From contig JAFQRJ010000010.1 of NCBI GenBank assembly GCA_017410145.1, forward strand, positions 1 through 64,000: a stretch of DNA of 64,000 nt. The letters are read 5' to 3'. Origin of the DNA: Tyzzerella sp. GTDB taxonomy: Bacteria > Bacillota > Clostridia > Lachnospirales > Lachnospiraceae. The position numbers were made by a program, and so were the translations under genes. Shown in pieces: positions 5,201 to 54,274 of this stretch (positions within the stretch are counted from its first letter, which is position 1; each line of letters starts with the position of its first letter). The notes beneath the pieces were generated by a model, which worked only from the letters and a program-made list of their open reading frames with translations, made no database searches and was not told the origin of the DNA.

Positions 5201-5895
5201 TCAGCATTTCCTGATTCAAAATCACTATTTGAAATAACATTCGTTAATTCGGTTTTTACTTTTTCTTGAGTAACCGAAAAATTATCAATATACATCTCTC
5301 CACTTCCACCAACACATTGGAATACAAGATGTCCGGCATTGCCCGTTGGCACTGTGTAACTCATCTCATGTGTTGTCCATGTAGTGGTTGCTGTCTGCCA
5401 TGTATAAAATGGATCCGCATTACTTAAGCCTTCATCTCCACAGAATAAATGAAAAGAAATGCTTGATGAACCCTTGATAGCAAAACTAATCTGAAATGTC
5501 TCGCCTGCGGTAAGCCCGGATAAAACATGAAATACTTTTCCGTTAGTCACATTGGGAATCTTTAAAACTTTATTTCCGCTTTCCTCTACAATTGCCATTG
5601 GAAGGCTATGTACGCTTCCCCACAAGTCCGCACTTCCTGATTCAAAATCACCATTTGAAATGTATTCTTTCACTTCTTTATCTTGAACTGCCTGCTGCAT
5701 AGACACTTCAATAGGGGTTGATACATCACTGTTATTCATCCAACCTTCTGTAGTGTCAAAACCACCATTTGCAATTAAATTTTCTGTGTCACTCGCTTGT
5801 GCCTGATTTGGCTCCGAGATTGTTATCATGCCGACTACAAGTGCAATTGATAAGATTACACACAAAACACGTTTTAATAAATTTTGTCCCTTCAT
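2233..5895 (-). CDS. Large surface-anchored multimodular protein with duplicated carbohydrate-binding-like domains
   Basis: A 1220-residue exported protein. The start chosen is the ATG at 5895 (AAAGGAGAG eight bases upstream), ten codons inside the longest frame. Visible modules: signal peptide to about residue 35; a short paralogous 'NGGFDTTEGW' stretch; two near-identical CBM-like beta-sandwich repeats at about 75-215 and 220-360, each opening with NGDFESG or NSDFESG and holding SFHLFCGDEGLSNA; a third diverged CBM-like domain to about 480; then several WYFT-containing repeats to about 1080. It ends with a single membrane helix (about 1183-1205) and a Lys/Arg-rich cytoplasmic tail, so it is membrane rather than sortase anchored. 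No catalytic domain is recognised. It sits between the DUF4838 lipoprotein and GH35 genes and probably captures polysaccharide at the cell surface. Confidence 0.85.
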   Translation of the reverse strand: MKGQNLLKRVLCVILSIALVVGMITISEPNQAQASDTENLIANGGFDTTEGWMNNSDVSTPIEVSMQQAVQDKEVKEYISNGDFESGSADLWGSVHSLPMAIVEESGNKVLKIPNVTNGKVFHVLSGLTAGETFQISFAIKGSSSISFHLFCGDEGLSNADPFYTWQTATTTWTTHEMSYTVPTGNAGHLVFQCVGGSGEMYIDNFSVTQEKVKTELTNVISNSDFESGNAELWGSVHSLPTAIVEENENKVLKISNVTNGKVFHVLSGLTAGTTYQISFDIKGSTNVSFHLFCGDEGLSNAVPFYTWQTATTTWATREMSYTVPSGNAGHLVFQCVGGSGEIYIDDFVAETERVARTYTEGIGTCLDAELDNVLVMKNMTEVTYPVAIQSGKTYEYSFAVKTDATGNDFEVGFGAGENAIWNHNSESESITDWNTISGTFTATSDVSSIRFNKTGEGIVFLDDVVLKERAAVQPELQSVELSFDNYNGGWYFTVDDISKIESGHYKVPIKIDDNATADVIIEYPQSWYPNGLAIWEFTNFGGTTPTTSFEIAENAVMAPIDVNTGVEDTSRNSVVISNTLRVVYTGGVWQEYKAPEPTPPELPTIDLGYKMVEVDNSWYFTSSNISTVTGSYYKATVKVDDTEFEVPLEKTADGFVIWVNFFGLIDPTKQEPTTKFEIEKDTLLQQIDPNTTGWSTAVEGGQTLKIAEDLVVVKTDTGWEVEGEQTPPDGPGQDEPTEPIVVALGNAMGIYNPGMENQVFSVIISGPDEIKTADITATGILKADGSDNEHVVYFPGNGEVFFYTDGARETLLIDKDTEFVAQDGKTVIQFDKDYEIDLINQVIYEQGNKPVEKDALDLTIAFDKIINDSFMFTWTMDSNQKPEAGFYRADAVIDGEETQILFEYYPDNNAFFIYPHCFNAVPVDGRAGYPTESFELKKGTKLTPVVTGTWAKNTEGQPYKLTRKVSVIKEGESWLDADYMEEISKQEPLEVKIVFDCVKGSAAIFKVILSGGKEIDDIYGDWTTATGTILRGVTETNAGKYNYTSEIAAYSITGNMFYMDGLRLHELDALQIDAGTILCADATCNSTQPIKIANQVRLIRDANDEWIIDKTFTTDYDLMAENETVADNQNKAESSEEQKDVVSQQKEEIVAPAEDDKNYAIENIQYHDEADDEGANSSIHASNTPIIVIGIGSGVLLALLCILLIIANKKRKNKQEQGE
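4850..5690 (-). repeat. In-gene tandem duplication of a CBM-like module
   Basis: Two head-to-tail copies of about 420 bp (approximately 4850-5265 and 5270-5690) inside the large anchored protein gene. They are still visibly similar at DNA level, with long shared blocks, for example around the codons for FHLFCGDEGLSNA and for HLVFQCVGGSGE. This points to fairly recent duplication of one carbohydrate-binding-like module. Confidence 0.8.
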
Positions 5896-18468: not shown

Positions 18469-19963
18469 TTTCTTCTAATTCTTTTGGTGGTAATGGTTTG
18501 GTAGAATTTTTTACAAAATCAGCCAAAGCCTTCTGTGCCTTTGCAATTGGAATGTTGGTTCCCGCACCTGCAACACATCCTCCCGGACATCCCATACCTT
18601 CAATGAGACAACCGTTTTTCTTTCCTGCCTTTGCAAGTGTCAATATTTTCTTACACTCCGCAAGGCCTTCCGCGTGTTCAATCTTAACTTCCGTTCCCGG
18701 ATAGTATTCGTTGATACATCTTTCAATTGCACTGGCAACTCCACCTGCAACCGCATAACCACGACCGGCCCCTGTTGCATTATGGAAGGAGGATTCAGCT
18801 TCAAATTTTGTTAAATCTATATTCTTTGCATCAAACATACCCTGTAATTCTTCAAAAGTAATAACGAAATCTACATCGCTTCGTACAGTACGACGTGAAG
18901 CCTCCAATTTTTTAGATGCACAAGGTCCGATAAACACAACCTTTGCATTTGGATGCTCTTGCTTAATAGTTCTTGCAGTAGCAACCATTGGTGTCAGTTC
19001 TTGAGAAACCTTATCTGCTAAATCCGGAAAATATTTCTTCGCAAGCACAGACCAAGCCGGACAACAAGAAGTCAACAAGAACGGTAATTCCCCGGTCACA
19101 ACCTTTTCCACATAATGATGTGCTTCAGCAATGGCACCAATATCGGCTCCAAGTGCCGTCTCATATACTTCTGAAAAACCAAGTTCCTGAAGGGCCGCCT
19201 TGATATTTCTCGGGGTAATATTCGGTCCAAACTGCCCTACAAATGCCGGTGCTATTTCAGCAATGATTTCTTGTCCCTCTTTTAAAGCTCGACACAATTG
19301 AAATACCTGTGATTTGTCAGAAATGGCTCCAAAAGGACAGCTTACCATACATTGACCACAAGATACGCATTTATCATTATCAATATATGCACGTCCTAAT
19401 TTATCAGATTTAACAGCTCCGACCCCGCAGGCTTTCTGACAAGGTCTTTCCTTCTTGGAAATCGCATCATACGGACAAATGGCCTTGCATTTGCCACATT
19501 TAATACATTTACTCTGGTCTATATAAGACTTGTTCTTCACCATTGTGATGGCCCCCACCGGGCAAACCTGTCTGCACGGATGTGCAACACATCCTTTGCA
19601 CATATCACTTACTTCATATCCCTTTTCCTCGCATGCATTACATGCAGATGGAATCACCTGCATCAGTGGCGGTTCATAATATTTCTCCGAAATGTTACTT
19701 TCTTCGATTCCCGCTGTCAAATGCACCATTCGATCTTCCGGTCGCAATGACATTCCCATCGCTAAACGTACACGTTCTCTAACAATTTCACGAGACTGGT
19801 ATATGCTTTCACGATATAATTCTGTATCTTCATTTACGATTTTATACGGTACTGCTTCAATATCATCATTCATACTTTGGGAAGTAGAATTAAATGCAAT
19901 TCTAGCAATTTCTTCAAAGACTTGTCTACGTACCTTTGTAATCGGTGTCTCTATTCCTCTCAT
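18455..19963 (-). CDS. Monomeric [FeFe]-hydrogenase, group B-like, with ferredoxin domains
   Basis: A 502-residue iron-sulfur protein. Cys clusters at about 108-135 and two 4Fe-4S ferredoxin motifs (CIKCGKCKAICP about 153-164; CVSCGQCMVSCP about 199-210) precede the H-cluster domain. The H-cluster signatures are TSCCPAW (298-304), GPCASKK (346-352) and GMGCPGGCVAGAG (456-468). L1 and L2 differ from the group A forms TSCCPGW and MPCxxK, so it fits group B, whose members are common in gut clostridia and poorly studied. The C-terminus lacks any NADH-binding part. It starts 12 bp after metH with a strong AAGGAG site, as the last gene of metF - activation protein - metH. It probably exchanges electrons with ferredoxin; a dedicated link to the folate pathway is inferred only from gene order. 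Confidence 0.9.
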   Translation of the reverse strand: MRGIETPITKVRRQVFEEIARIAFNSTSQSMNDDIEAVPYKIVNEDTELYRESIYQSREIVRERVRLAMGMSLRPEDRMVHLTAGIEESNISEKYYEPPLMQVIPSACNACEEKGYEVSDMCKGCVAHPCRQVCPVGAITMVKNKSYIDQSKCIKCGKCKAICPYDAISKKERPCQKACGVGAVKSDKLGRAYIDNDKCVSCGQCMVSCPFGAISDKSQVFQLCRALKEGQEIIAEIAPAFVGQFGPNITPRNIKAALQELGFSEVYETALGADIGAIAEAHHYVEKVVTGELPFLLTSCCPAWSVLAKKYFPDLADKVSQELTPMVATARTIKQEHPNAKVVFIGPCASKKLEASRRTVRSDVDFVITFEELQGMFDAKNIDLTKFEAESSFHNATGAGRGYAVAGGVASAIERCINEYYPGTEVKIEHAEGLAECKKILTLAKAGKKNGCLIEGMGCPGGCVAGAGTNIPIAKAQKALADFVKNSTKPLPPKELEEIELK

Positions 19964-25454: not shown

Positions 25455-26246
25455 TTATCGTGGTTTGCGTTCCAGTCGGATTGTATCTGCTATTAACGCA
25501 ATAAATTCTGAATTTGTTGGTTTTCCCTTTCCATAACTCACCGTATATGCAAACAATTGGTCCAACACATCTACTTTCCCTCTGCTCCACGCTACTTCTA
25601 TTGCATGCCGAATGGCACGTTCTACGCGACTGGATGTAGTGCGGTGTTTCTTTGCAACCGTTGGATACAAAATTTTTGTAATTGCATTTAGAACATCCAT
25701 ATCTTCTACTGCCATCATAATGGCATCTCGGAGATAATGATATCCTTTGATATGTGCAGGGATTCCAATTTCATGAATCATATTTGTAACTTTATCTTCT
25801 AAATCTTCTTCTGGCGCGTTTTCAACATTTAAATTGATGTCTTTCGGTTTATATATTTCAGTTTTTGTTTCACCTTGTAAGTATTTTATTCTTTTCAAAA
25901 CAGTTTCATTTTGAAATGGTTTCATAATATAGTAACTTGCTCCTTTTCGAAAGGCATCTTCCGTAATCTTTTCTTGTCCAACAGCAGTGATAATAATGAA
26001 TTGTGGATGTTTTTTGAGACTTTTGTCTTTGGCAACTTCGTCCATAACACTTAATCCGTCCATTTTCGGCATGATCAAATCTAATAAAACAACATCCGGT
26101 TGCTTTGTTTTGATAATCTGATACATGTCCTCTCCATTATTCGCTTTTCCGACAAGCGTTAAGTCTTTGTCCTTACTCACAATTTCTCCCAAAATCTCCA
26201 AAATCCGTTCATTATCGTCTCCAATTGCAACGTTTAAATGCGCCAT
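25455..26246 (-). CDS. spo0A: Sporulation master regulator Spo0A
   Basis: A 263-residue response regulator. The receiver domain (1-125) has the acidic pocket (GDDNE, 9-13), phospho-acceptor Asp 56 in [11 protein letters not shown], and the conserved Thr/Lys (IITA, MKPF). The C-terminal sigma-A-contacting HTH domain shows the nearly invariant Spo0A string ([18 protein letters not shown]). It binds 0A boxes and commits the cell to sporulation. Its own promoter contains a 0A-box core. It is separated by about 27 kb from spoIVB, its usual neighbour. Confidence 0.98.
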
Positions 26247-44004: not shown

Positions 44005-44883
44005 TCAATTCATTCTTAAAATATCATAAGGGAAATCAATATCAAATTCGTCTAAAATACTACTTATTGAGCCTGACGAATCAAGTGCGTTGTACAAATC
44101 ACGCATTACAGCCAAGTCCCTTCTAGCTGTGTCCGAATTGCATTTTTCTGCATATTCACATGCTTTTTTAGCATACTTGCAAGCAGAGTCCTTATTGTTA
44201 AGACCAAAAGCAAATATTTGCGATAATGCATAACAGTTAGCAAAAAGCGGTGGCAGGTAATACTCGCTATCTATGTTTTTCAACAATTCTAGTGCACGAA
44301 CAACCTTATCAAAGCCTGCGGCAGCACCACTATAATCGCCTTCTTCTAAAAGTTCTTTTGAAACTTTTAATATACTTAAAGCCAGATCTGAGCATTTTTC
44401 TTCGTTATTACGAACATATTCACTGGTCCAGGTAAAACTATCATACTCATTTATTGGTTTTGTTGAGGAAATAGAAGTTTGTGATCGCTCGTGCTGTTTC
44501 TTTTCTTCGTTTGGTTTTTCTTCTTCATTTTCAAGTTTTTCTGGCGTACTTTCCACAGATTCTTCGGTTTCTGATTCAGAAATAATGGAATCAAACTCAG
44601 CACCAAGTTTGATTTCTTGCATTTCCCAGCAATCCTTCTTCCAAAAAGGCTTTACCGCAACTATAAATAATCCACGGAAGATAAATAAAATAATGTACGA
44701 TAAAAATCCGTAACAGATACCTGCAAACATTTTTCCACCTTGGACGCCCATCGCAATTGATATTACCAAAGCAAATAGCAAATACCAGCATATGTTACTA
44801 GAGTTGTTGGAAGAATCTTTAATTCTCCGTTTAGCACTATCAAAGACTATTTTTCCGTTCTGCAAGATTGGACTACCGCTCAT
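44005..44883 (-). CDS. Chimeric membrane protein with helical C-terminus, unknown function
   Basis: A 292-residue frame. Its first 13 residues (MSGSPILQNGKIV) are not native: they match the SpoIVB-tail fragment described separately, and no ribosome site precedes the ATG. After the junction come a polar stretch, two membrane helices (about 30-55 and 58-78), a Glu-rich linker (ETEESVESTPEKLENEEEK) and a helical C-terminus (about 150-292) that looks like two or three TPR-type repeats. The true start may be lost or lie internally. It could be the tail of a membrane-anchored TPR protein; I do not recognise the family. Confidence 0.5.
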   Translation of the reverse strand: MSGSPILQNGKIVFDSAKRRIKDSSNNSSNICWYLLFALVISIAMGVQGGKMFAGICYGFLSYIILFIFRGLFIVAVKPFWKKDCWEMQEIKLGAEFDSIISESETEESVESTPEKLENEEEKPNEEKKQHERSQTSISSTKPINEYDSFTWTSEYVRNNEEKCSDLALSILKVSKELLEEGDYSGAAAGFDKVVRALELLKNIDSEYYLPPLFANCYALSQIFAFGLNNKDSACKYAKKACEYAEKCNSDTARRDLAVMRDLYNALDSSGSISSILDEFDIDFPYDILRMN

Positions 44884-44912
44884 GATTGTGTCAAGTATGG
44901 ACCAACACTTTT
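44842..44912 (-). pseudogene. Short SpoIVB-tail-like fragment (copy 2)
   Basis: The minus strand reads CWSILDTIMSGSPILQNGKIV. It matches the fragment at 46688-46837 ([21 protein letters not shown]) and, from SGSPI on, the real SpoIVB. The homology breaks off after GKIV, where the chimeric gene's own sequence begins. An identical GTGTTGGTCC starts both fragments at DNA level. Confidence 0.75.
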
Positions 44913-44960
44913 TTTCTAAAACAAAAATAAATTCTACTTCATATCAATTATGCCTATCGT

Positions 44961-45209
44961 TTATTTTTTTATATCGTACTTTTTATTCAGCTCTGTAATT
45001 GCATCCGAAACTAGTATCTCGCCAGAAAGAATTCCCTTAACCCCTTCAATACACTCACTATCAAAGTCCATACCTTCCATTCTGAAGCAAGATTCAAGGC
45101 TATTTACTTTTCTATCAATTGTCATACTTGTATCACCTATGTTTTCTAGTTGGATTTTTAACCATGCCAGTTCATAACTGTTTTCTATTTCAATTTTATC
45201 AACCTTTAT
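44961..45209 (-). pseudogene. VbhA-like antitoxin gene, probably lacking its start
   Basis: An open frame of 82 codons to the stop at 44961-44963. It contains YELAWLKIQLENIG, then NSLESCFRMEGMDFDSECIE and GEILVSDAITELNKKY. The S-x-x-x-x-x-E-G helix and the 'L-SGEI---AI-EL--KY' end recall VbhA-type antitoxins of Fic toxins. No ATG, GTG or TTG occurs at the beginning of the homology; an internal ATG at 45125 has AGGTG eight bases upstream and would give 54 residues. No Fic toxin gene is nearby. Assignment by resemblance only. Confidence 0.5.
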
Positions 45210-45281
45210 AAAATCGCAAAATTACGAATACACTGCTGGATCATTTTTATTCAATCCCGTCTTATTACAAAATTCTTATGT

Positions 45282-46514
45282 CTATAATTCCTTGTTTTTG
45301 GATATATAATCCAGCATATTACAATGAATAATCCCGTCTCTTTTTTGGAGCAATTGATCCAATGTAAACAAATATTTCGGATAATTGTCTCGTATCTTAG
45401 AGAATGGTTTGTATTCTCTGTCTTCAGTTACTTTATCCATAATTGTCATTGAAACCTGAACATATTGGTAATTGTCGTCTTTTCTTGTAATAAAATCACA
45501 CTCCAAAGTTCCTATTTTTCCAACACTCATTGCATATCCCTTTGCCCTCAAGTATGTGTACATCACATTTTCCAACACTGGACCATAATTGATTCTTGTA
45601 TCTGTATTTCTCGAAAAATATATTCCCAAATCAGCAAGATAATATTTTTCTTCACCACGCAGAGATTTTTTTGAACGCAAATCAAACCTTGGACATTTGT
45701 AGATAATTTTCGCATTTTCCAATATTTCTATATAAGTGCGAAGCGTCTCTCTTCTGATTGGAATCTTTTCCTCGTTATGAAAATAATCCAAAATATTTGT
45801 AAGACTAGTTGTTGCACCGAAATTATTTATAATATACGTCATGACCTTATCGAACACAGTTTTATTTCTGATTTTGCGATGTTTGACAATATCTTTATCA
45901 ATAATTTGACTAATTACGTTTTTTACATAAAAATCTTTATCGTCTTTCCCTTCAAATTCAAGTGTTTTAGGCAAACCTCCAAAGCGAATATATTCATTGA
46001 ATTCCTCCATATTACTTTCACTAACTGGGAGCCCCCTAAATTTCTTCATTTCAATAAATTCGTAGAAATTCAAAGGAAACATCTCAATTTCAATATATCT
46101 ACCGGTTAACTTTGTTGCCAACTCTCCACTCAACAAATAGGAGTTTGAACCCGTAATAAAAATCGAAAAATTTCCTTCTTCTCTGAATGCATTAATTACT
46201 TCTTCAAAACCTTCCACATTTTGAATTTCATCTATAAAAAGATACTTGTAATCCTCATCTACAATTCTTTCATCAATTGCTTGTTCTAATTGCTGCGCTG
46301 TTTTGATGTTTTTAAATCCTCTTTTGTCAAGATTAATCTGAATAATATCTTTTTCTGCGATTCCAATTGATAACAACTCGTTTATAACAGATAACATAAA
46401 ACAAGATTTTCCACATCGCCGAATACCTGTAATAACCTTAATTAAATCACTATTGATAAAGCCTTTTATCTTGTTCATGTAATATTGTCTGACATAAATT
46501 TTACTGTTTGTCAC
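45282..46514 (-). CDS. AAA-type ATPase with DUF4143 domain
   Basis: A 410-residue protein with GTG start (GGAGGTG seven bases upstream). Walker A is GIRRCGKS (about 30-37), Walker B is YLFIDEIQN (about 90-98), followed by ITGSNSYLLSGELATKLTGRY. The C-terminal DUF4143 part carries a PD-(D/E)xK-like pattern, LECDFI ... YQYVQVS, suggesting a degenerate or active nuclease fold. Such ATPases are widespread, often scattered in accessory DNA, and their role is unclear; defence or toxin-like functions have been suggested. It has its own promoter. Confidence 0.88.
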   Translation of the reverse strand: MTNSKIYVRQYYMNKIKGFINSDLIKVITGIRRCGKSCFMLSVINELLSIGIAEKDIIQINLDKRGFKNIKTAQQLEQAIDERIVDEDYKYLFIDEIQNVEGFEEVINAFREEGNFSIFITGSNSYLLSGELATKLTGRYIEIEMFPLNFYEFIEMKKFRGLPVSESNMEEFNEYIRFGGLPKTLEFEGKDDKDFYVKNVISQIIDKDIVKHRKIRNKTVFDKVMTYIINNFGATTSLTNILDYFHNEEKIPIRRETLRTYIEILENAKIIYKCPRFDLRSKKSLRGEEKYYLADLGIYFSRNTDTRINYGPVLENVMYTYLRAKGYAMSVGKIGTLECDFITRKDDNYQYVQVSMTIMDKVTEDREYKPFSKIRDNYPKYLFTLDQLLQKRDGIIHCNMLDYISKNKEL

Positions 46515-46534
46515 GATACTTCACCTCCAATCAT

Positions 46535-46563
46535 ATTATATCGTATTTTTTAGTTAAATGCAA
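46535..46563 (-). promoter_or_regulatory. Promoter of the DUF4143 ATPase gene
   Basis: TTGCAT (46558-46563), 17-base spacer, TATAAT (46535-46540) on the minus strand, 20 bp before the GTG start. Confidence 0.7.
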
Positions 46564-46630
46564 GTTAAGGCGTATATTTGTTTAATTTTTGTAATTTTTA
46601 CCTCTTTAAACACTTAATATACAGAAAAAT

Positions 46631-46655
46631 AGGCCTTTACTTTTCGCAAAGACCT
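46631..46655 (-). terminator. Terminator after the SpoIVB-tail fragment / RhuM gene
   Basis: Stem AGGTCTTT / AAAGGCCT with one wobble pair, followed by ATTTTT on the minus strand. It follows the SpoIVB-tail fragment by about 30 bp, as a terminator would follow a real spoIVB 3' end. Confidence 0.7.
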
Positions 46656-46687
46656 ACACTATCTTATCTAAACCAATCTTTTACAAC

Positions 46688-46837
46688 TCAATCTCCTGCT
46701 TTCAACATATCCTCTATAAAAATCCCATATCCCCTCGTGGGGTCATTCACCAGCACATGGGTCACCGCACCAACTATCTTTCCTTCTTGTAGAATAGGAC
46801 TGCCACTCACGAGTGTGTCAATATAGGACCAACACTC
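46688..46837 (-). pseudogene. SpoIVB 3'-end fragment (copy 1)
   Basis: The minus strand encodes [19 protein letters not shown], then [19 protein letters not shown] and [11 protein letters not shown] before a stop. From SGSPI onward it is nearly the same as the last 36 residues of SpoIVB (53219-53331), and the DNA is visibly about 80% alike over roughly 115 bp. Only the peptidase tail with the serine motif is present; the rest of the gene is missing. It directly follows the RhuM gene, whose last codons overlap the frame. Confidence 0.85.
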
Positions 46838-46850
46838 GTCTGCTCTGTTT

Positions 46851-47837
46851 TTACTTATTTTCTGCTTTGCTCTCAATCAACTTGATTGCATCTAAATAAT
46901 CTCTTTCTACTTCACTTAATGTTTTTTGCTGATACTTTCTGTATTCCTCGGTTGCTTTATTCATAGCTTGCGTATGCGAAACCGAACCCGCTCCAATAAG
47001 CAACTGTTCACCCGACATAGTTAGAATTCTATCCAAGTGCTCAACCCAATCCTTCATTGTCATCGTTTGTTCGCGTTCTGCCTGTCTCTCTGCAAAATCA
47101 AGATAACCAGACACAAGTTGACCAAGCGAACGAAGTTCTTTCTCATCAAGATAATTTTTCGCAATCTTAACATCGCTTAAATGAGGTCTACTCCCCTTAA
47201 AAGACGTAAGCCCCATAAATTCTTTTTCACTGTCGGCTCGGTTATAGATAACCTCTGCTGCAGTCTGTCCGTGAATGGCATAGTGTATCTTATTCTGAAC
47301 CTTTTTGAAGAATTCAATAGATATTTCTGCGTTAGGATCATAATCTATACTCGTGGCATAAATATCAAGAATTTGACGATAAAACACTTTTTCGGAAGCG
47401 CGAATATCACGGATTCTTTCTAAAAGTTCTTTGAAATATCCACCGCCGCCCAAAGATTTAAGGCGTTCATCATCCATGGTGAATCCTTTGCGGATATATT
47501 CATTCAGACGCTTTGTTGCCCACTGCCTAAATTGTGTACCGCGCAAGGATTTTACTCGGTAACCGACAGAAATGATAACATCCAGATTATAGTAATCAAC
47601 CTGATATTCTTTTCCATCTGTCGCAGTTGTTGCAAAATTTGCAACAACTGAATTCCTAACAAGTTCACCTTCTGTAAAAATGTTTTTTATATGTCTTGAA
47701 ATAGTCGATTTATCTCTTTCAAACAAAGCTGCCATCTGATCTAATGTCAGCCATACAGATTCATCATAAAATCTAACATCAACAGCAATTTGATTGTCAT
47801 CGGTTTTGAAAATCACTATATTATTTTCAAGATTCAA
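46851..47837 (-). CDS. RhuM-family protein
   Basis: A 328-residue protein. The start is taken as TTG at 47837, eight bases after AAGGGG; a GTG three codons earlier would overlap the ribosome site. The N-terminal half has [23 protein letters not shown], an HTH-like motif, followed by the RhuM core [20 protein letters not shown]; the C-terminal half is helical with [15 protein letters not shown]. RhuM-type proteins are frequent in genomic islands beside restriction or mobile genes and have no settled function. Here the neighbours are also accessory. Confidence 0.88.
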
Positions 47838-48025
47838 ACTTCTCACCCCTTGTAGATTTGTTGTTTCATAGTCAATTTTTTCACATGAAAATCATAGCAC
47901 AAATGTTCGATTTTTACAATATCTTTTAATTTATCTCTAAATACAAATAGCAGCAAGCTCCCGCCTACTGCTATCTAATTCTACTGCGTTTCTTTTCGCT
48001 GTTCGGCACTTGCCGAATGTCAACA

Positions 48026-48061
48026 AAAAGAAGAACATATTTTTCGAAATGTTCTTCTTTT
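48026..48061 (-). terminator. Terminator after the GH2 gene
   Basis: Stem AAAAGAAGAACAT / ATGTTCTTCTTTT with a 10-base loop, beginning 10 bp after the GH2 stop codon. A second small palindrome (TTCGGCA/TGCCGAA, 48002-48017) lies just beyond. The rest of the 48-47.84 kb gap holds nothing I recognise. Confidence 0.8.
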
Positions 48062-48071
48062 CATTCTCTAT

Positions 48072-50339
48072 TTATCTAGTTTTTTTGATTTTATTCAATT
48101 GACGATTCATTTTTAGCAACTCTTCTTTTGTAAAGGTAACATTACGCATACCTAACATACCCGTAAAACGAAGAACTGTAAATCCGCCAATCATATCCAT
48201 CACGCCGCTGTTCATTTCTGGATTCTTCTTTTTCTTTGTCTTCTTTCCTTCTGATTTTGGTGTGCCTTGACTCATTTTTTTTGCCAAAGTTAGAAACAGG
48301 CCTACAAACCAAAGTTTTCCACGAAACGTCTTCATGATGTCGCCAATTTTATCATTAAGACTGAATCGACCTTCTACTTCAACAATATCGAACCAGTTAA
48401 GTACGGCACCTTGCTCTCGCAGAATATAATCTGGATTCATGGTATCTACTTTTCGAATGATGCTTTCATCCTTATATTCACCTGCAAGAGCTTCCAGTTT
48501 TATTTCTCCTTGATTTGGAACATCAAAGTAAAAGAAATGGTCTTTCGCAGTTTTCTTCCCTAAACTCACACCGTTTGCAAACAATTCAACCTCTGGAAGA
48601 TTTGAATAAATAGTAACCTTTGTTGTATCTTCTACACGGTCCACATATCGTTTCCCACACAAATGAACAAATGGTTCGTCGCTAAGCCATGCCTTATAGG
48701 CATAGAAAGAGTCCTTCTTATATTTGCGATCGAAAGTAATAAGTCCTTTGTGATTTTGTCCGTTTTCACCACCTTCTGCTCTCGCATCTGCTCCAAAATC
48801 GAACATATTCCAGCAATGTGTTGCCCAAAGATAATTTCTAGTAAAAAGTTGGCAAATCAAGGATTCATGATAAATTGCTTGGTACTCTTCTGAATAATCA
48901 CCACTTTCCGGCTTAGAGTTATGCCAATTGAGCGCTTCACAGCCATATTCACTCACACCTATTGCCTTATCCGGATATTTCTCATGGAACTTATCAAACC
49001 AAGGACCATAGTCTTCCAGATTGCCACCATACCAACCAAAATAGTGATTGTAGCTCACTACATCTGATATGTGAACAATCTCTTCTTCCATACCACACAT
49101 GGAAATGCAAGCCATAGTGGTTGGTCTTGTACTGTCCATTTCGTGTACTAAATCATTCAGCACATAATGATTGCGAATCATATCCTGGTCTTTCGCCCCA
49201 TCCATTGTGATTTCATTCGATAGACCCCACATACAGATACTTGGATGGTTATAGCACTGTGTAATTAACTCTCTCATTTGTGATATTGTATTTTCATTCC
49301 CACCTGGCATATGTCGGGAAATATAAGGAATTTCTGCCCATACAACCATTCCCTTCTCATCACACAGGTCATAAAAATACTGGTCATGCTGATAATGTGC
49401 AAGACGAATAGTATTTGCTCCCATCTCGCAAATCAAATCCATATCTTCCCTATGGTGTTCAGGTAATAATGCGTTTCCAATTCCTAGTCTATCCTGATGA
49501 CGTGCTACGCCTCGGAGAGGATACTCTCTTCCGTTGAGAATAAATCCTTTTTCGGGATTTATTTCAAAACTACGACATCCAAAGCGAGTGAAAACCTTGT
49601 CTATTTCCTCATCACCGCGTAAAATGACACACTCTGCTGTATACAGATACGGATTCTTCACTCCATCCCACAAATGTGCATCAGAAATAACAAATTCTAT
49701 ATTCGTTTCTCGTACACACTTCTCTGCTACAACTTTTCCAGACGCATCCAGAATACGATATTGCAACCCATCTGTCTCTTGCAGTTCAGCAACATATGTC
49801 TCAATCGCCACCTTTGCATCCTTATCGTTCATAATCGGAGTCACATGAATCCCTGGAGTACCCCAATCAGCTAATTTAAAATGTGTGTCCGGCACAGCAA
49901 TGATATTTACATCTCGATAAATACCACCATAAAAGGTAAAATCTGCTGTTTGTGGATATACTGTTTCGTTTGCCTCATTATTCACTAATATAGATAGACA
50001 ATTTTCTTCCCGTAAGGTATTTGTAATCTCTACTCTCCATGTAGAGTATCCACCGTCATGATGAGAAAGATGTTTTCCATTCATATACACGTCAGCAGTG
50101 GAATTTGCGCCATTGATTTCTAGATAATAACGCTGCGCATCTGGTAATTCACTTTTTATAATACTTTTCGCATAACAACATGTACCACGAAAATAATCAT
50201 TACCACCATCTTGACCATCTTTCGCATTCCAAGTGTGAGGTAGGTCGACCTTATCGCCATTCATCGGTAATACAGTTGGCACTTGTGACAAGTCTTTCAC
50301 AAATGACCAATCACAATTAATATTTAATACTGTTCTCAT
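48072..50339 (-). CDS. Glycoside hydrolase family 2 protein (beta-galactosidase-like)
   Basis: A 755-residue GH2 enzyme. The sugar-binding jelly-roll (about 1-150), Ig-like domain (about 160-255) and TIM barrel (about 260-560) are in order. The acid/base is Glu 376 in WGLSNEI and the nucleophile Glu 464 in GVSEYG. There is no signal peptide, so it acts in the cytoplasm. The last about 110 residues are an unusual extension: a hydrophobic patch, a Lys-rich stretch (KKTKKKKNPEMNSGV) and an ending MNRQLNKIKK, which I recall from other clostridial glycosidases. It lies three bases after the GPH symporter gene, so it cleaves what that symporter imports. Beta-galactoside or beta-glucuronide specificity is not settled. 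Confidence 0.93.
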   Translation of the reverse strand: MRTVLNINCDWSFVKDLSQVPTVLPMNGDKVDLPHTWNAKDGQDGGNDYFRGTCCYAKSIIKSELPDAQRYYLEINGANSTADVYMNGKHLSHHDGGYSTWRVEITNTLREENCLSILVNNEANETVYPQTADFTFYGGIYRDVNIIAVPDTHFKLADWGTPGIHVTPIMNDKDAKVAIETYVAELQETDGLQYRILDASGKVVAEKCVRETNIEFVISDAHLWDGVKNPYLYTAECVILRGDEEIDKVFTRFGCRSFEINPEKGFILNGREYPLRGVARHQDRLGIGNALLPEHHREDMDLICEMGANTIRLAHYQHDQYFYDLCDEKGMVVWAEIPYISRHMPGGNENTISQMRELITQCYNHPSICMWGLSNEITMDGAKDQDMIRNHYVLNDLVHEMDSTRPTTMACISMCGMEEEIVHISDVVSYNHYFGWYGGNLEDYGPWFDKFHEKYPDKAIGVSEYGCEALNWHNSKPESGDYSEEYQAIYHESLICQLFTRNYLWATHCWNMFDFGADARAEGGENGQNHKGLITFDRKYKKDSFYAYKAWLSDEPFVHLCGKRYVDRVEDTTKVTIYSNLPEVELFANGVSLGKKTAKDHFFYFDVPNQGEIKLEALAGEYKDESIIRKVDTMNPDYILREQGAVLNWFDIVEVEGRFSLNDKIGDIMKTFRGKLWFVGLFLTLAKKMSQGTPKSEGKKTKKKKNPEMNSGVMDMIGGFTVLRFTGMLGMRNVTFTKEELLKMNRQLNKIKKTR

Positions 50340-50342
50340 ATA

Positions 50343-51737
50343 TTATTCGCCTCTTTTTTCTTTTAAGATAGCTGTGTTTTCTGCGACTTTCTTCTTGCTC
50401 AGTGGATAAATAACAAACAGACAAATACCCACAATCAAATACAGAAGCATAGGAACAAGTGTTGCAATGTTATAGATTCCGTTTTTTACAGACTCTGTTT
50501 GTCCTGTAAACGAGCCTTCCATATATCCAATCCATCCAAGACTCCATCCACCAAGGGCACTGGCAATTGCCTGTCCTAATTTTCTCGAAAATGAACAAAC
50601 TGCATAAATCGTTCCGTCGTCACGTTTCCCACTACGAACTTCTTGATCATCAATAACATCACTTACAAACGCCCAAATGATAAGATTGAACAAACCAAAA
50701 CCAAGCAAACCTACAATGTTTACAACTGTGTATAGCCACATATTTGTTGTTTTCATAATAAACAATGCGCCAAAAGCAACTGTTCCCATAATAGACGCGA
50801 AAATACCAAGTTCCTTTTTACCAAATTTACGAGCCAATGGAACTGCGCAAGGTGCCAAAATCAGAGCCGGTGCAAATCCTGCTGCATTCATAACAGAAAG
50901 TCCCATTGTATTTCCAAAATAATCTTTGAATATGTAGTTATTAATTGTTTGATTGAGCATCTGCGCACCGAGATAACAGATAAACACTAGTGAAATACCA
51001 ATAAGAGCACGGTTTCCAGCCAATGCTTTGAGCGTATCTTTGAATGAAACACTTTTTCCTTCTTCTGAAATTTTCACTCTCTCTGTACACAGAAAGTAAC
51101 AAATAATGTAGCAAGCAACTGCCAAAAGCGAAGTGATTAACGCCACAACTGGAAATGCTGTTGCATTCGCAACTTTTGTACCATCTTCCAACGTAGTATA
51201 CAAGAACATTGGAACTACAACCCCAACAAGAATCTGCGGAATCATAGATCCCACACCACGAAACGTTGACAATGCTGCTCTGTCGTCTGGTTCATTGCTC
51301 ATAACAGATGCCATAGAGCCATATGGGATATTAATTGCAGTATAACAAATACTTCCCCACAAAAGATATGTTACAAACATGTAGATAATGCGAACTGTCA
51401 TCGGCGAATTTACCGTAAATGTCTGATACATTAAAAATGATGCCAACGCCACAGGTCCACATGCACGAAGTAACCACGGACGGAACTTGCCATTTTGTGT
51501 CGCCTTGGTCTTGTCACAAATACGTCCCATAGCAGTATCTGTAAATGCATCCACAATACGCGAAATTAAAAACATTGTTCCTACTAAACCTGCATTGATA
51601 CCTAATACATCGGTATAAAACACCTGCAGATAAAGACTTGCAAAGATAAATGTGAAATCATTGGCTACATTTCCAAGCATATAACCAACCTTGTCCCTTC
51701 CTCCAAAAGGACGTTTTTGTGTAATTGTTTTGTTCAT
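50343..51737 (-). CDS. GPH-family sugar:cation symporter (MelB-like)
   Basis: A 464-residue membrane protein with twelve helices. It shows the MelB-type start KVGYMLGNVANDFTFIFASL, then DAFTDTAMGRICDKTKATQNGKFRPWLL (given here in parts), a GPH signature between helices 2 and 3. It imports a glycoside with Na+ or H+. It forms a two-gene operon with the GH2 gene and is divergent from the AraC-type regulator, which probably controls it. Confidence 0.93.
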   Translation of the reverse strand: MNKTITQKRPFGGRDKVGYMLGNVANDFTFIFASLYLQVFYTDVLGINAGLVGTMFLISRIVDAFTDTAMGRICDKTKATQNGKFRPWLLRACGPVALASFLMYQTFTVNSPMTVRIIYMFVTYLLWGSICYTAINIPYGSMASVMSNEPDDRAALSTFRGVGSMIPQILVGVVVPMFLYTTLEDGTKVANATAFPVVALITSLLAVACYIICYFLCTERVKISEEGKSVSFKDTLKALAGNRALIGISLVFICYLGAQMLNQTINNYIFKDYFGNTMGLSVMNAAGFAPALILAPCAVPLARKFGKKELGIFASIMGTVAFGALFIMKTTNMWLYTVVNIVGLLGFGLFNLIIWAFVSDVIDDQEVRSGKRDDGTIYAVCSFSRKLGQAIASALGGWSLGWIGYMEGSFTGQTESVKNGIYNIATLVPMLLYLIVGICLFVIYPLSKKKVAENTAILKEKRGE

Positions 51738-51844
51738 AATGAGTTTCTCCTTCCATTACAATTCATTACAAACATTTTATCCAAAACTGCTCCATACATA
51801 GTAGGATAAATTTTATCAATTATCGTATAATTTTTACCATATTG

Positions 51845-51873
51845 TTGATTATCCAAAAAACATGTCTTATAAT
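51845..51873 (+). promoter_or_regulatory. Promoter of the AraC-type regulator gene
   Basis: TTGATT (51845-51850), 17-base spacer, TATAAT (51868-51873). It shows that the upstream ATG near 51862 cannot be the translation start. A 13-bp palindrome (GATAAA-T-TTTATC) lies nearby at about 51814-51826, between the divergent genes. Confidence 0.75.
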
Positions 51874-51906
51874 ATGTATAGTAAAGCAAAACAAGGGGTT
51901 TTATTT

Positions 51907-53136
51907 ATGAACTATGATCTTCAATTGAATTTTTTAAGAGATTTTCTACATTCGCTACACATATCAAGCAGCATCATATCTAATCCTTCCGAAAAAATAT
52001 CTTCTGAAGTAGACCTTGGATTACGTGCATTTTTATTCGAAACAGATAACTATAATACCATTTTAGAAAATTCGCTATCATCAGCTAAAGAAAAAACCAT
52101 ATATCGTTTTTTTGATGAATATAACTGTAAATATATTTTCTTAAAATTACCAAATTGTAAAGACGATACATATTTTTTTATCGGTCCATATCTTTTGGAA
52201 ATGCTAGATTATGACTATTTGACAAAAAAAGCTGAAACACTTGCTTTATCAGAATCACAAAAACGACAGTTAGAATTATATTACAATTCGCTTCCAGTTA
52301 TCGAAGATGAAAATTACCTATTGACACTCGCCAATACTTTTGGGGCGACCATATGGGGAAAAGAATCTCAATTTGAAATGGATTATGTAGAATACGAAAT
52401 TCCAGACAGAAACACTCCTATTCCAGTTTCCCCTGATTATTCCGAACAACACAGAACACAAATAACTCTATCTGTATTAGAAGCGAATTACGAAAAAGAA
52501 AAACAATTGATGAAAGCAGTCAGTCAAGGAAATTTACATTTGGTTACTGCTGTTGCATCTTCTGTGTATAACAATGGTACCGAACAGCGTTTACCGGATT
52601 CTCTACGCGACCGCAAGAACTATTTAATCATTTTAAAAACTCTTTTGCGAAAAGCTGCTGAACATGGTAACGTGCATCCACTACATATTCATCGACTCAC
52701 CTCGAAGTACGCCAAACGAATTGAAGAAACACGTTCATTAAAGGAAAGCCTACAGCTTCAAGAAAATATGATTCGCGATTACTGCATTTTGGTGAATAAA
52801 CACTCCCTTAGCCAATACTCCTACTATGTTGGTAAAGCTATTACTATCATTAACTATGACCTGACAGCAGATTTGTCATTACACTCAATTGCCTCACAAC
52901 TTAATGTAAATAGTAGTTATCTTTCTAATTTATTTCACAAGGAATGTGATTGTACATTGACTGCATACGTGAATCGTAAGCGTATCACCCATGCTGTTTC
53001 CATGCTAAAAAACACAGATAAACTTATTCAGGATATCGCTTCTGATTGTGGATTTCAAGATACAACATACTTCATACGTTTATTTAAAAAACAGTTCGGA
53101 TGCACTCCATTACAATATCGTGGGAACTGCATATAA
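51907..53136 (+). CDS. AraC-family transcriptional regulator
   Basis: A 409-residue protein; the ATG at 51907 has AAGGGG eight bases upstream and lies after the promoter. The C-terminal 100 residues are the two-HTH AraC domain (LSLHSIASQLNVNSSYLSNLF, split here, and IQDIASDCGFQDTTYFIRLFKK). The N-terminal 300 residues are a helical sensory region without a cupin motif. It is divergent from the GPH/GH2 operon and is the likely activator of it in response to the sugar. Confidence 0.92.
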   Translation: MNYDLQLNFLRDFLHSLHISSSIISNPSEKISSEVDLGLRAFLFETDNYNTILENSLSSAKEKTIYRFFDEYNCKYIFLKLPNCKDDTYFFIGPYLLEMLDYDYLTKKAETLALSESQKRQLELYYNSLPVIEDENYLLTLANTFGATIWGKESQFEMDYVEYEIPDRNTPIPVSPDYSEQHRTQITLSVLEANYEKEKQLMKAVSQGNLHLVTAVASSVYNNGTEQRLPDSLRDRKNYLIILKTLLRKAAEHGNVHPLHIHRLTSKYAKRIEETRSLKESLQLQENMIRDYCILVNKHSLSQYSYYVGKAITIINYDLTADLSLHSIASQLNVNSSYLSNLFHKECDCTLTAYVNRKRITHAVSMLKNTDKLIQDIASDCGFQDTTYFIRLFKKQFGCTPLQYRGNCI

Positions 53137-53153
53137 CGCCGAACACAAATCAA

Positions 53154-53198
53154 AAATAGCAGGCCAGCCAGTAAACAACCTTACGCTGTCTGCTATTT
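53154..53198. terminator. Terminator between araC-type gene and spoIVB
   Basis: Stem AAATAGCAG / CTGCTATTT with a long inner loop; the minus-strand product ends in TTTTTGATTTG. It serves spoIVB and possibly the convergent regulator gene. Confidence 0.65.
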
Positions 53199-53215
53199 CC
53201 GATTTCCGCACGGAC

Positions 53216-54274
53216 TCATTGCTTTAACATATCCTCAATAAATATCCCATATCCTCTCGTCGGGTCATTCACCAGCACATGCGTCACCGCACCCACCAAT
53301 TTCCCATCCTGTGCGATTGGACTTCCGCTCATTCCCTGTACGATTCCTCCTGTCAACTCCAACAGTTCTTCGTCCACTACTTCAATGACAATTCCTTTGT
53401 TCACATTTCCTGTGTAATAATCCACATTTTTTATCTTAATATCATATTCCTTCATTGTGCCGTTTACGGTACAACGAATCGTTGCATTGCCAATCTTGAT
53501 ATCATCTTTTTCGCAGATTTCTATTGGTTCCTGGTTTTCTAAAAGTTTATCAATATTCTCGATTTTTCCATAAATTCCGTTTTCCGTATTTTTTTCGACT
53601 GTGCCTAAAATGTTATAGCGATTATAAATAATCACGCCTTCCAATCCACCAGGCTCCCCTTTTTTACCCTTTTGTACACCAATAATATTTGTCTCATAGA
53701 CGGTTCCTTCTGATATTTCTAATAATTCCTCCGTATCTGTGTCATGAATACCATGTCCCAATGCACCAAATTCACTATTTGTCGTCACAAAGGTCAGTGT
53801 CCCAAGACCTTGCACATTATCCTTCACCCAAATTCCCAATTTGTACTTTTGCTCCCCTACCTGTACAGACTGCATTTTCACATCAATATACTCTTCTTCT
53901 CGTCTTAGGTTCAGTATGACCTCAGACGATTCCAGTTTCGCCACTGCCCTGATCAAATCCTTCTTTGTATCAATGTTCTCCCCATTCATCCCAACGATAT
54001 AATCTCCGGATTTGACCAAGTTTTTTGCAGGCTCGTATGCATTGCCATCCACACATTCAATAGATTCTGTTGCAAGCACAAGAACGCCATCCATTTCCAT
54101 ATAGATACCAATTGGCACTCCGCCTGGAATGACCATTTCGCCATCTATGGACTTGGTACTTACCTGCTGATTTTCCTCTTCTTCTTGCAATGTTGTTACG
54201 CCCAAGCCGGTACCCATAGTCATTGCAAGAAGAACGAACATAATTAATATTCGTTTATACCACCATCTTCGCAT
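53216..54274 (-). CDS. spoIVB: SpoIVB serine peptidase (stage IV sporulation signal)
   Basis: A 352-residue S55 peptidase. An N-terminal membrane anchor (about 8-27) is followed by a PDZ domain (about 65-135) and the peptidase domain with FGALGHGIHD (catalytic His about 174-177) and VQGMSGSPIAQDGK (catalytic Ser about 316-318). In the forespore it cleaves SpoIVFA and so triggers pro-sigma-K processing in the mother cell. It follows recN as usual, but spo0A is not next to it. The last 36 codons recur twice as fragments at 44.8 and 46.7 kb. Confidence 0.96.
   Translation of the reverse strand: MRRWWYKRILIMFVLLAMTMGTGLGVTTLQEEEENQQVSTKSIDGEMVIPGGVPIGIYMEMDGVLVLATESIECVDGNAYEPAKNLVKSGDYIVGMNGENIDTKKDLIRAVAKLESSEVILNLRREEEYIDVKMQSVQVGEQKYKLGIWVKDNVQGLGTLTFVTTNSEFGALGHGIHDTDTEELLEISEGTVYETNIIGVQKGKKGEPGGLEGVIIYNRYNILGTVEKNTENGIYGKIENIDKLLENQEPIEICEKDDIKIGNATIRCTVNGTMKEYDIKIKNVDYYTGNVNKGIVIEVVDEELLELTGGIVQGMSGSPIAQDGKLVGAVTHVLVNDPTRGYGIFIEDMLKQ

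Follow-up and report, generated by a model that had tools for sequence, protein, structure and literature searches.

The window analysed here is a stretch of 64,000 nucleotides from Tyzzerella sp. (contig JAFQRJ010000010.1; contig C9 of genome G000 in our numbering, where G numbers designate genomes and L numbers loci), which belongs to a 1.89-Mb metagenome-assembled genome (MAG) that is 68% complete. It carries an intact copy of the sporulation protease gene spoIVB and two displaced copies of the 3′ end of this gene (Table 1). An earlier note on this DNA had pointed to these fragments, and they are real: each starts exactly between QGM and SGSP, the latter presumably holding the catalytic serine, and each follows a 27-bp motif. 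Fragment 2, estimated by eye in the note to be about 80% like the spoIVB end, aligns with the present tail at 81% identity over 108 bp, and the identical start reported for the two fragments was recovered in both (GTGTTGGTCC), their 27-bp motifs being alike, not identical. The shared lead-in CWSxxDTxxSGSP is present as well; it is not a protein feature, and corresponds instead to the DNA of a putative recombination half-site read in frame. A 49-aa fragment query run against the own genome (E up to 10) gave three matches, all at this locus (6.6e-30 for itself, 2.2e-18 for spoIVB and 2.2e-6 for fragment 1). The terminator proposed behind fragment 2 exists as a 12-pair stem and is plausible, not significant, with four terminator-like sites found between 44700 and 53400 against 4.1 expected in shuffles.

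Table 1. Features of the spoIVB region in the window (window positions)
Feature	Position	Strand	Basis
spoIVB, intact target gene	53216..54274	-	Peptidase_S55 PF05580
Putative attachment point in spoIVB, between codons M and S of QGMSGSP (ATG|AGCG)	53326..53332	-	exact breakpoint in relatives
Present spoIVB tail, 37 codons	53219..53329	-	sequence, alignments
Fragment 2, displaced spoIVB tail, 39 codons + stop	46688..46807	-	sequence, alignments, protein-query match
Fragment 1, truncated displaced spoIVB tail, 12 codons	44845..44880	-	sequence, alignments, protein-query match
Putative P half-site 1 (element right end), contains TTGACA	46808..46834	-	mismatch-free pattern hit, junction alignment, motif scan
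Putative P half-site 2	44881..44907	-	mismatch-free pattern hit, junction alignment, motif scan
Terminator-like hairpin after fragment 2	46629..46657	-	12-pair stem
RhuM-family gene (cargo), directly ahead of half-site 1	46851..47846	-	PF13310, E 4.8e-112
AAA_14/DUF4143 ATPase (cargo)	45282..46514	-	PF13173 and PF13635
Remnant in stretch earlier termed VbhA-like	45090..45242	-	two blocks, 95-96% nt identity to G008
292-aa open reading frame continuing from truncated tail	44005..44883	-	no Pfam match
AraC-type regulator, between spoIVB and RhuM unit	51862..53136	+	PF12833
MFS_2 sugar transporter	50343..51737	-	PF13347
GH2 glycoside hydrolase	48072..50339	-	PF02836
spo0A, 27 kb from spoIVB; directly behind spoIVB in three congeners	25455..26246	-	similarity

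Junctions were compared in a set of 36 rows, comprising 19 displaced tails and 17 spoIVB genes; the tail at 5937 of L043, first marked as a possible spoIVB, follows a RhuM-like open reading frame (ORF) and was counted among the former. A motif such as TGTTGGTCCTATATTGACACACTCGTG, hereafter P, precedes the displaced tails, which start with the SGSP side of the boundary QGM|SGSP. A weight matrix built from such sites and run over 18 sources (cut-off 15, shuffle maximum 12.8) matched P before 15 of the 19 displaced tails, with further matches in L149, which is an array, and at 5323 of L036, where only a few tail-like bases follow; a weak match (15.5) within the spoIVB gene of L040 was taken as chance. 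In the 10 genomes of the genus, the own one included, a pattern search for P allowing up to two mismatches gave 69 matches against 35 with a reversed control, and all five mismatch-free matches fell at arrays (two in G000, two in G008, one in G009); a third G008 copy is a shifted variant that escapes this search. Displaced tails occur in four of these 10 genomes (G000, G003, G008 and G009, the single one of G003 being degenerate). At the level of the family, 252 of 397 genomes match the tail query at E 0.01 and 11 of them have two or more matches (contexts were read for part of this list, excepting the second match in each of G295 and G380); split spoIVB genes are undercounted in such a survey, because they give one match only.

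Relatives of these loci point to a likely integrase. At L044 and L049, three tandem genes for large serine recombinases (LSR1 to LSR3) lie directly before the motif and the tail. A genome scan with LSR3 yielded 66 loci, 17 of them at 55% identity or more (three being the query source genomes). A spoIVB tail lies downstream in 16 of these 17, although in L082 the contig runs out 12 codons into it, and at the 17th, L071, the contig stops exactly at the motif; beside the remaining 49 loci no tail was found at E 0.05. The distance between tail and recombinase gene reaches about 1.0 kb in L077 and 0.35 kb in L078. All three recombinases stand in tandem at 16 of the 17 loci (the first of L070 is cut by a contig edge) and at all three IMG/VR loci. 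Resolvase and Recombinase domains (Pfam) were detected on LSR1 and LSR3 of L049, the two proteins tested. LSR1 and LSR2 also match CcrA, CcrB and CcrC, and LSR3 matches CcrA and CcrB, all far under the NCBIfam cut-offs (the best CcrB score is 109.7 bits against a cut-off of 900), and a XisF match is under its cut-off too. In plasmid and phage collections, all LSR3 relatives are below 60% identity (best 51.5%).

One common element end is followed by four different spoIVB tails at L072-L075, and the same holds for G175 and G253, whose tails differ from one another, and for the IMG/VR contigs L134 and L136, whose tails likewise differ. This bears on the idea that the fragments are nothing but segmental spoIVB duplications produced by homologous recombination, with no mobile element involved. 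Untruncated displaced tails are indeed 77-100% identical to the spoIVB tail of their own genome (11 comparisons; two truncated ones reach 40-47%), but all begin at the same codon, preceded by a motif which is absent from spoIVB and adjoins recombinase triplets in relatives, and the same element end meets different tails in different hosts; we therefore consider duplication alone extremely improbable.

Some further observations concern recombinase genes. Another serine recombinase gene begins just past the tail in L134 (6843-7874, plus strand), which suggests nested elements. In L071, a Spo0A-like match lies on the opposite strand about 5 kb ahead of LSR3 (5203-5376, minus strand). A 337-aa ORF of G313 (L047, 9752-10765, minus strand), located in an insert with defence genes, looks by eye like a tyrosine recombinase without catalytic residues and has no PADLOC match; it was rejected as a candidate integrase, only weak pieces of it (E 0.3 or worse) being found among the array loci.

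The other side of the insertion is visible in 12 of the 17 LSR3 genomes, where the 5′ part of spoIVB ends in QGM and is followed by the other end of the element, hereafter P′; in these 12 genomes, a few variants of one element end stand behind different spoIVB genes. Both halves of spoIVB lie on one contig in Schaedlerella arabinosiphila (G432, about 115 kb apart), Eubacterium sp. 14-2 (G433, about 108 kb apart) and G429 (about 50 kb apart). When the flanks were joined in silico (excluding G443, whose tail was not seen), a single open frame resulted in 11 of 11 cases, eight of them built from separate contigs; with the element in place, a stop follows immediately in eight and after 12-21 codons in three. 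The direct repeat is very short, a TG common to both junctions by eye. At two of the 17 loci, L072 and L073, the next gene after the displaced tail is spo0A, which agrees with the native position; several contigs of the set are short.

A search of the draft assemblies with a 59-aa peptide found an intact spoIVB in six of the 17 genomes, G441 having both an intact and a split gene, and none in the other 11. The split genes could mark hosts that irreversibly gave up sporulation, with decay as the only consequence, a view that agrees with the truncated product and with these 11 genomes. Nevertheless, the 5′ parts and the tails have open frames that fit together in all 11 joins; a recent insertion would look alike. 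We find decay alone rather unlikely.

P and P′ mirror each other in their outer and inner arms, between which P contains TTGACA and P′ contains TATAAT or CATAAT. Joining the two ends in silico gives a −35/−10 sequence in all 12 cases, with TTGACA followed by a spacer of 17 (10 of 12) or 18 (2 of 12) nucleotides and by TATAAT (10) or CATAAT (2). Nine of these joins combine ends of different contigs; that of G440 uses a second right end of the locus, and in that of G443 the right end is a contig end. As the elements are related, the 12 joins are not independent cases. Joined, the ends form a promoter-like sequence pointing into the left end. L137-L147 have a conserved leader in common within about the first 75 bp inside the left end; it contains an inverted repeat and a TGACCA stretch that is also conserved, and by eye some changes affect both sides of the stem; an Rfam search of six left-end loci gave no match at E 0.1.

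We consider it highly probable from these sequence comparisons that the window fragments are attR-type scars, each a P half-site joined to a displaced tail, of elements inserted at QGM|SGSP of spoIVB. In relatives, such elements have three tandem large serine recombinases next to their right end P; their left end P′ abuts the 5′ part of spoIVB, and the spoIVB tail lies beyond P. The recombinases would catalyse both integration and excision, the latter restoring spoIVB and switching on the left-end genes through the joined-end promoter. The window array would be what is left of two or more successive insertions that lost their recombinases and left ends, while spoIVB regained a tail. Of the proposals of the earlier note, an insertion within spoIVB that displaces the old tail is supported, as is a variable cargo; the note saw no integrase, and the likely one is now found in relatives, none having been detected in the window array itself.

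Several points weigh against this interpretation. The two spoIVB halves share a contig in only three of the 12 split genes, their pairing being assumed for the others, and misplaced contigs are possible in the many genomes that are MAGs. The scan gave no P match for four of the 19 displaced tails: one L045 copy has a one-base shift, L036 is degenerate, and L048 and the tail at 5937 of L043 have no recognisable motif. L071 has no LSR1, only the second and third recombinases. In the 18 sources scanned, no P′ end was found beside any tail, the P′ matches being mostly reversed P sites; one P′-like match in L034 (10984, plus strand; score 19.3, shuffle maximum 14.6) lies inside an ORF, apart from any tail, and may be chance or an old end, while one in the window at 19293 scores 13.1, under the same shuffle maximum. 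The array of G349 (L043, contig C25), which carries RhuM/Fic-type genes, is on a contig away from the spoIVB gene of this genome, which is directly followed by spo0A, and its tails are unlike the own one. Finally, no LSR3 match was found in the genome of the window at E 1e-5 (a MAG 68% complete, in which LSR1 and LSR2 were not searched), and for this reason the window array is read as a remnant and not as an integrative and conjugative element (ICE).

The origin of the present tails can be approached from genomes with both kinds. The earlier note had the elements bringing a replacement tail, which is not supported as stated, the left end being tail-free and directly following the cut spoIVB in 12 genomes. 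G434 and G313 each have an intact spoIVB followed in the same row by a displaced tail, with a recombinase triplet in between in G434 and a 10-kb insert without triplet in G313; a tail must therefore have been regained somehow. In one reading, which follows the model of the note, small tail-carrying cassettes of the form tail-cargo-P would be moved into spoIVB in trans and each would exchange its tail, in an integron-like manner. This would explain why the window, G008, G009, G434 and G313 have intact spoIVB genes next to displaced tails, and also cargo that is 95-98% identical in amino acids between congeners (98% for the DUF4143 protein of the window and G008, 95% for a BRO gene of G008 and G009) whose spoIVB genes share 62% and 58% in the DUF4143 and BRO pairs, respectively; composite elements with an internal attR could yield such units by ordinary excision. 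However, the DUF4143 units of G000 and G008 have a tail of 77% identity and a stretch behind it of 36-80% (50-bp windows) against a cargo averaging about 95%, and no P′ lies beside such units. Moreover, the two tails are 100% alike within G434 and 96% within G313, the similarity breaking off about 12 bp after the stop in the former and about 4 bp after it in the latter, as in a duplication of host tails. We thus find the cassettes rather unlikely. Given 95-98% for the cargo, 77% for the tail and 58-62% for spoIVB, a transfer between species seems to have involved the cargo and not the tail before DUF4143; this tail looks host-derived.

Alternatively, spoIVB would first be split and then recover an intact 3′ end through unequal or illegitimate recombination with a copy free of the element, so that the right part of the element and P joined to the old tail stay behind downstream. 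Such a restoration agrees with a host-like tail next to horizontally acquired cargo, with the near-identical duplicated tails of G434 and G313 and with the lack of P′ beside tails in arrays, but the duplications of G434 and G313 end no more than about 20 bp from the stop codon, nearer than random breakpoints would suggest; in our view it has an even chance of being correct. The order of the window array fits repeated insertion, each followed by tail recovery along a presumed route of this kind. In G269, the tail is 81% identical and the flank behind it more alike, and the locus looks mosaic. A discordance between tails and 5′ parts was discarded as proof of element-borne tails, being too noisy (66-85% nucleotide identity among nine congeners).

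In line with an insertion, spo0A lies 88-113 bp after spoIVB in G001, G005 and G006, congeners without fragments, against 27 kb in the window, where the interval is also filled by other genes without a tie to the elements. As for the cargo named in the note, the RhuM and DUF4143 genes do lie within the units, while nothing ties a movement of the GH2/MFS/AraC block to them. The G008 homologue of the DUF4143 protein matches the PADLOC candidate PDC-S01, and the 10-kb insert of G313 contains Nsn-, PrimPol- and HEC-02-like genes; judged from this one case and the DUF4143 unit, spoIVB would be a place behind which candidate defence genes are also found.

Conjugation and mobilization domains were scanned in the left parts of the G433 and G442 elements. 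The former has coupling-protein and TraG-type ATPase (P-loop) genes, and the latter relaxase, MobC and actin-like genes; the G429 element shows no obvious conjugation module by eye. The first left-end ORF of L147 gives ParA-model matches under their cut-offs. A conserved protein of 367-377 aa without NCBIfam match is encoded near the left end of L143 (855-1958, minus strand) and, by eye, of L141, L142, L146 and L157, in L142 and L157 ahead of conjugation-like genes.

A further-reaching proposal is that of an inheritable sporulation switch, with spoIVB off while the element is integrated and excision both repairing spoIVB and assembling a promoter for partition and transfer genes; we regard it as quite improbable. 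If it were true, the excised circle could enter the spore, as a forespore counterpart of the skin element that survives as a plasmid-like circle. spoIVB is expressed in the forespore, and excision of an element from it would therefore be inherited, whereas the genes split by skin and SPbeta belong to the mother cell, which leaves no descendants. Element-controlled sporulation is directly testable, since Schaedlerella arabinosiphila DSM 106076 and Eubacterium sp. 14-2 have a split spoIVB on one contig and no other copy was found. PMC4191935 describes skin in sigK and SPbeta in spsM as elements splitting mother-cell sporulation genes, which excision restores in frame; like them, the present elements would split a sporulation gene site-specifically, here with in-frame joinability in silico. 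The word spoIVB does not occur in the text of PMC4191935.

ICEs with triplets of serine integrases are a known kind of element, and the spoIVB target and the scar arrays appear to be new. A circle-junction promoter of Tn4451/Tn4453 was reportedly described by Lyras and Rood in 2000; these are also elements with a large serine recombinase whose joined ends form a promoter, as predicted here, but their promoter serves the recombinase gene, whereas ours would read into genes of the left end, opposite the end where the recombinases lie. SCCmec, which targets rlmH by means of Ccr recombinases, likewise combines large serine recombinases, insertion near the 3′ end of a gene and stacked remnants; unlike in SCCmec, the recombinases found here are far below the Ccr family cut-offs. 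Integron cassette arrays depend on the tyrosine recombinase IntI, while the recombinases here are of the serine type. Streptococcal ICEs (Ambroset et al., 2016; PMC4701971) have triplets of serine integrases and hsdM, mutT and traG as targets; shared features are three adjacent recombinases at one end, a disrupted protein gene, very short direct repeats and conjugation modules, and the present elements differ by their spoIVB target, their occurrence in Lachnospiraceae and other Clostridia, their promoter-like end halves and their scar arrays. IME_Rho_tet inserts mostly in MAFF2 genes, and spoIVB is not mentioned in the available part of that source (PMC12904643). Titles and abstract beginnings of literature on spoIVB with serine recombinase, prophage or excision showed no such case, though a publication may have gone undetected. 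A single, precisely defined boundary between two codons of a sporulation protease gene would be a recurrent insertion point of triplet-recombinase elements in Clostridia, and insertions in spoIVB may explain short SpoIVB-like fragments in genome annotation.

Behind the spoIVB tail, L035, L048 and L056, which belong to different genera, show by eye a similar terminator loop (AAGCTTGCTT) and a palindrome like CGGCGAAAGCCG, perhaps a repeat resembling repetitive extragenic palindromes; a related palindrome occurs in the window at about 48000.

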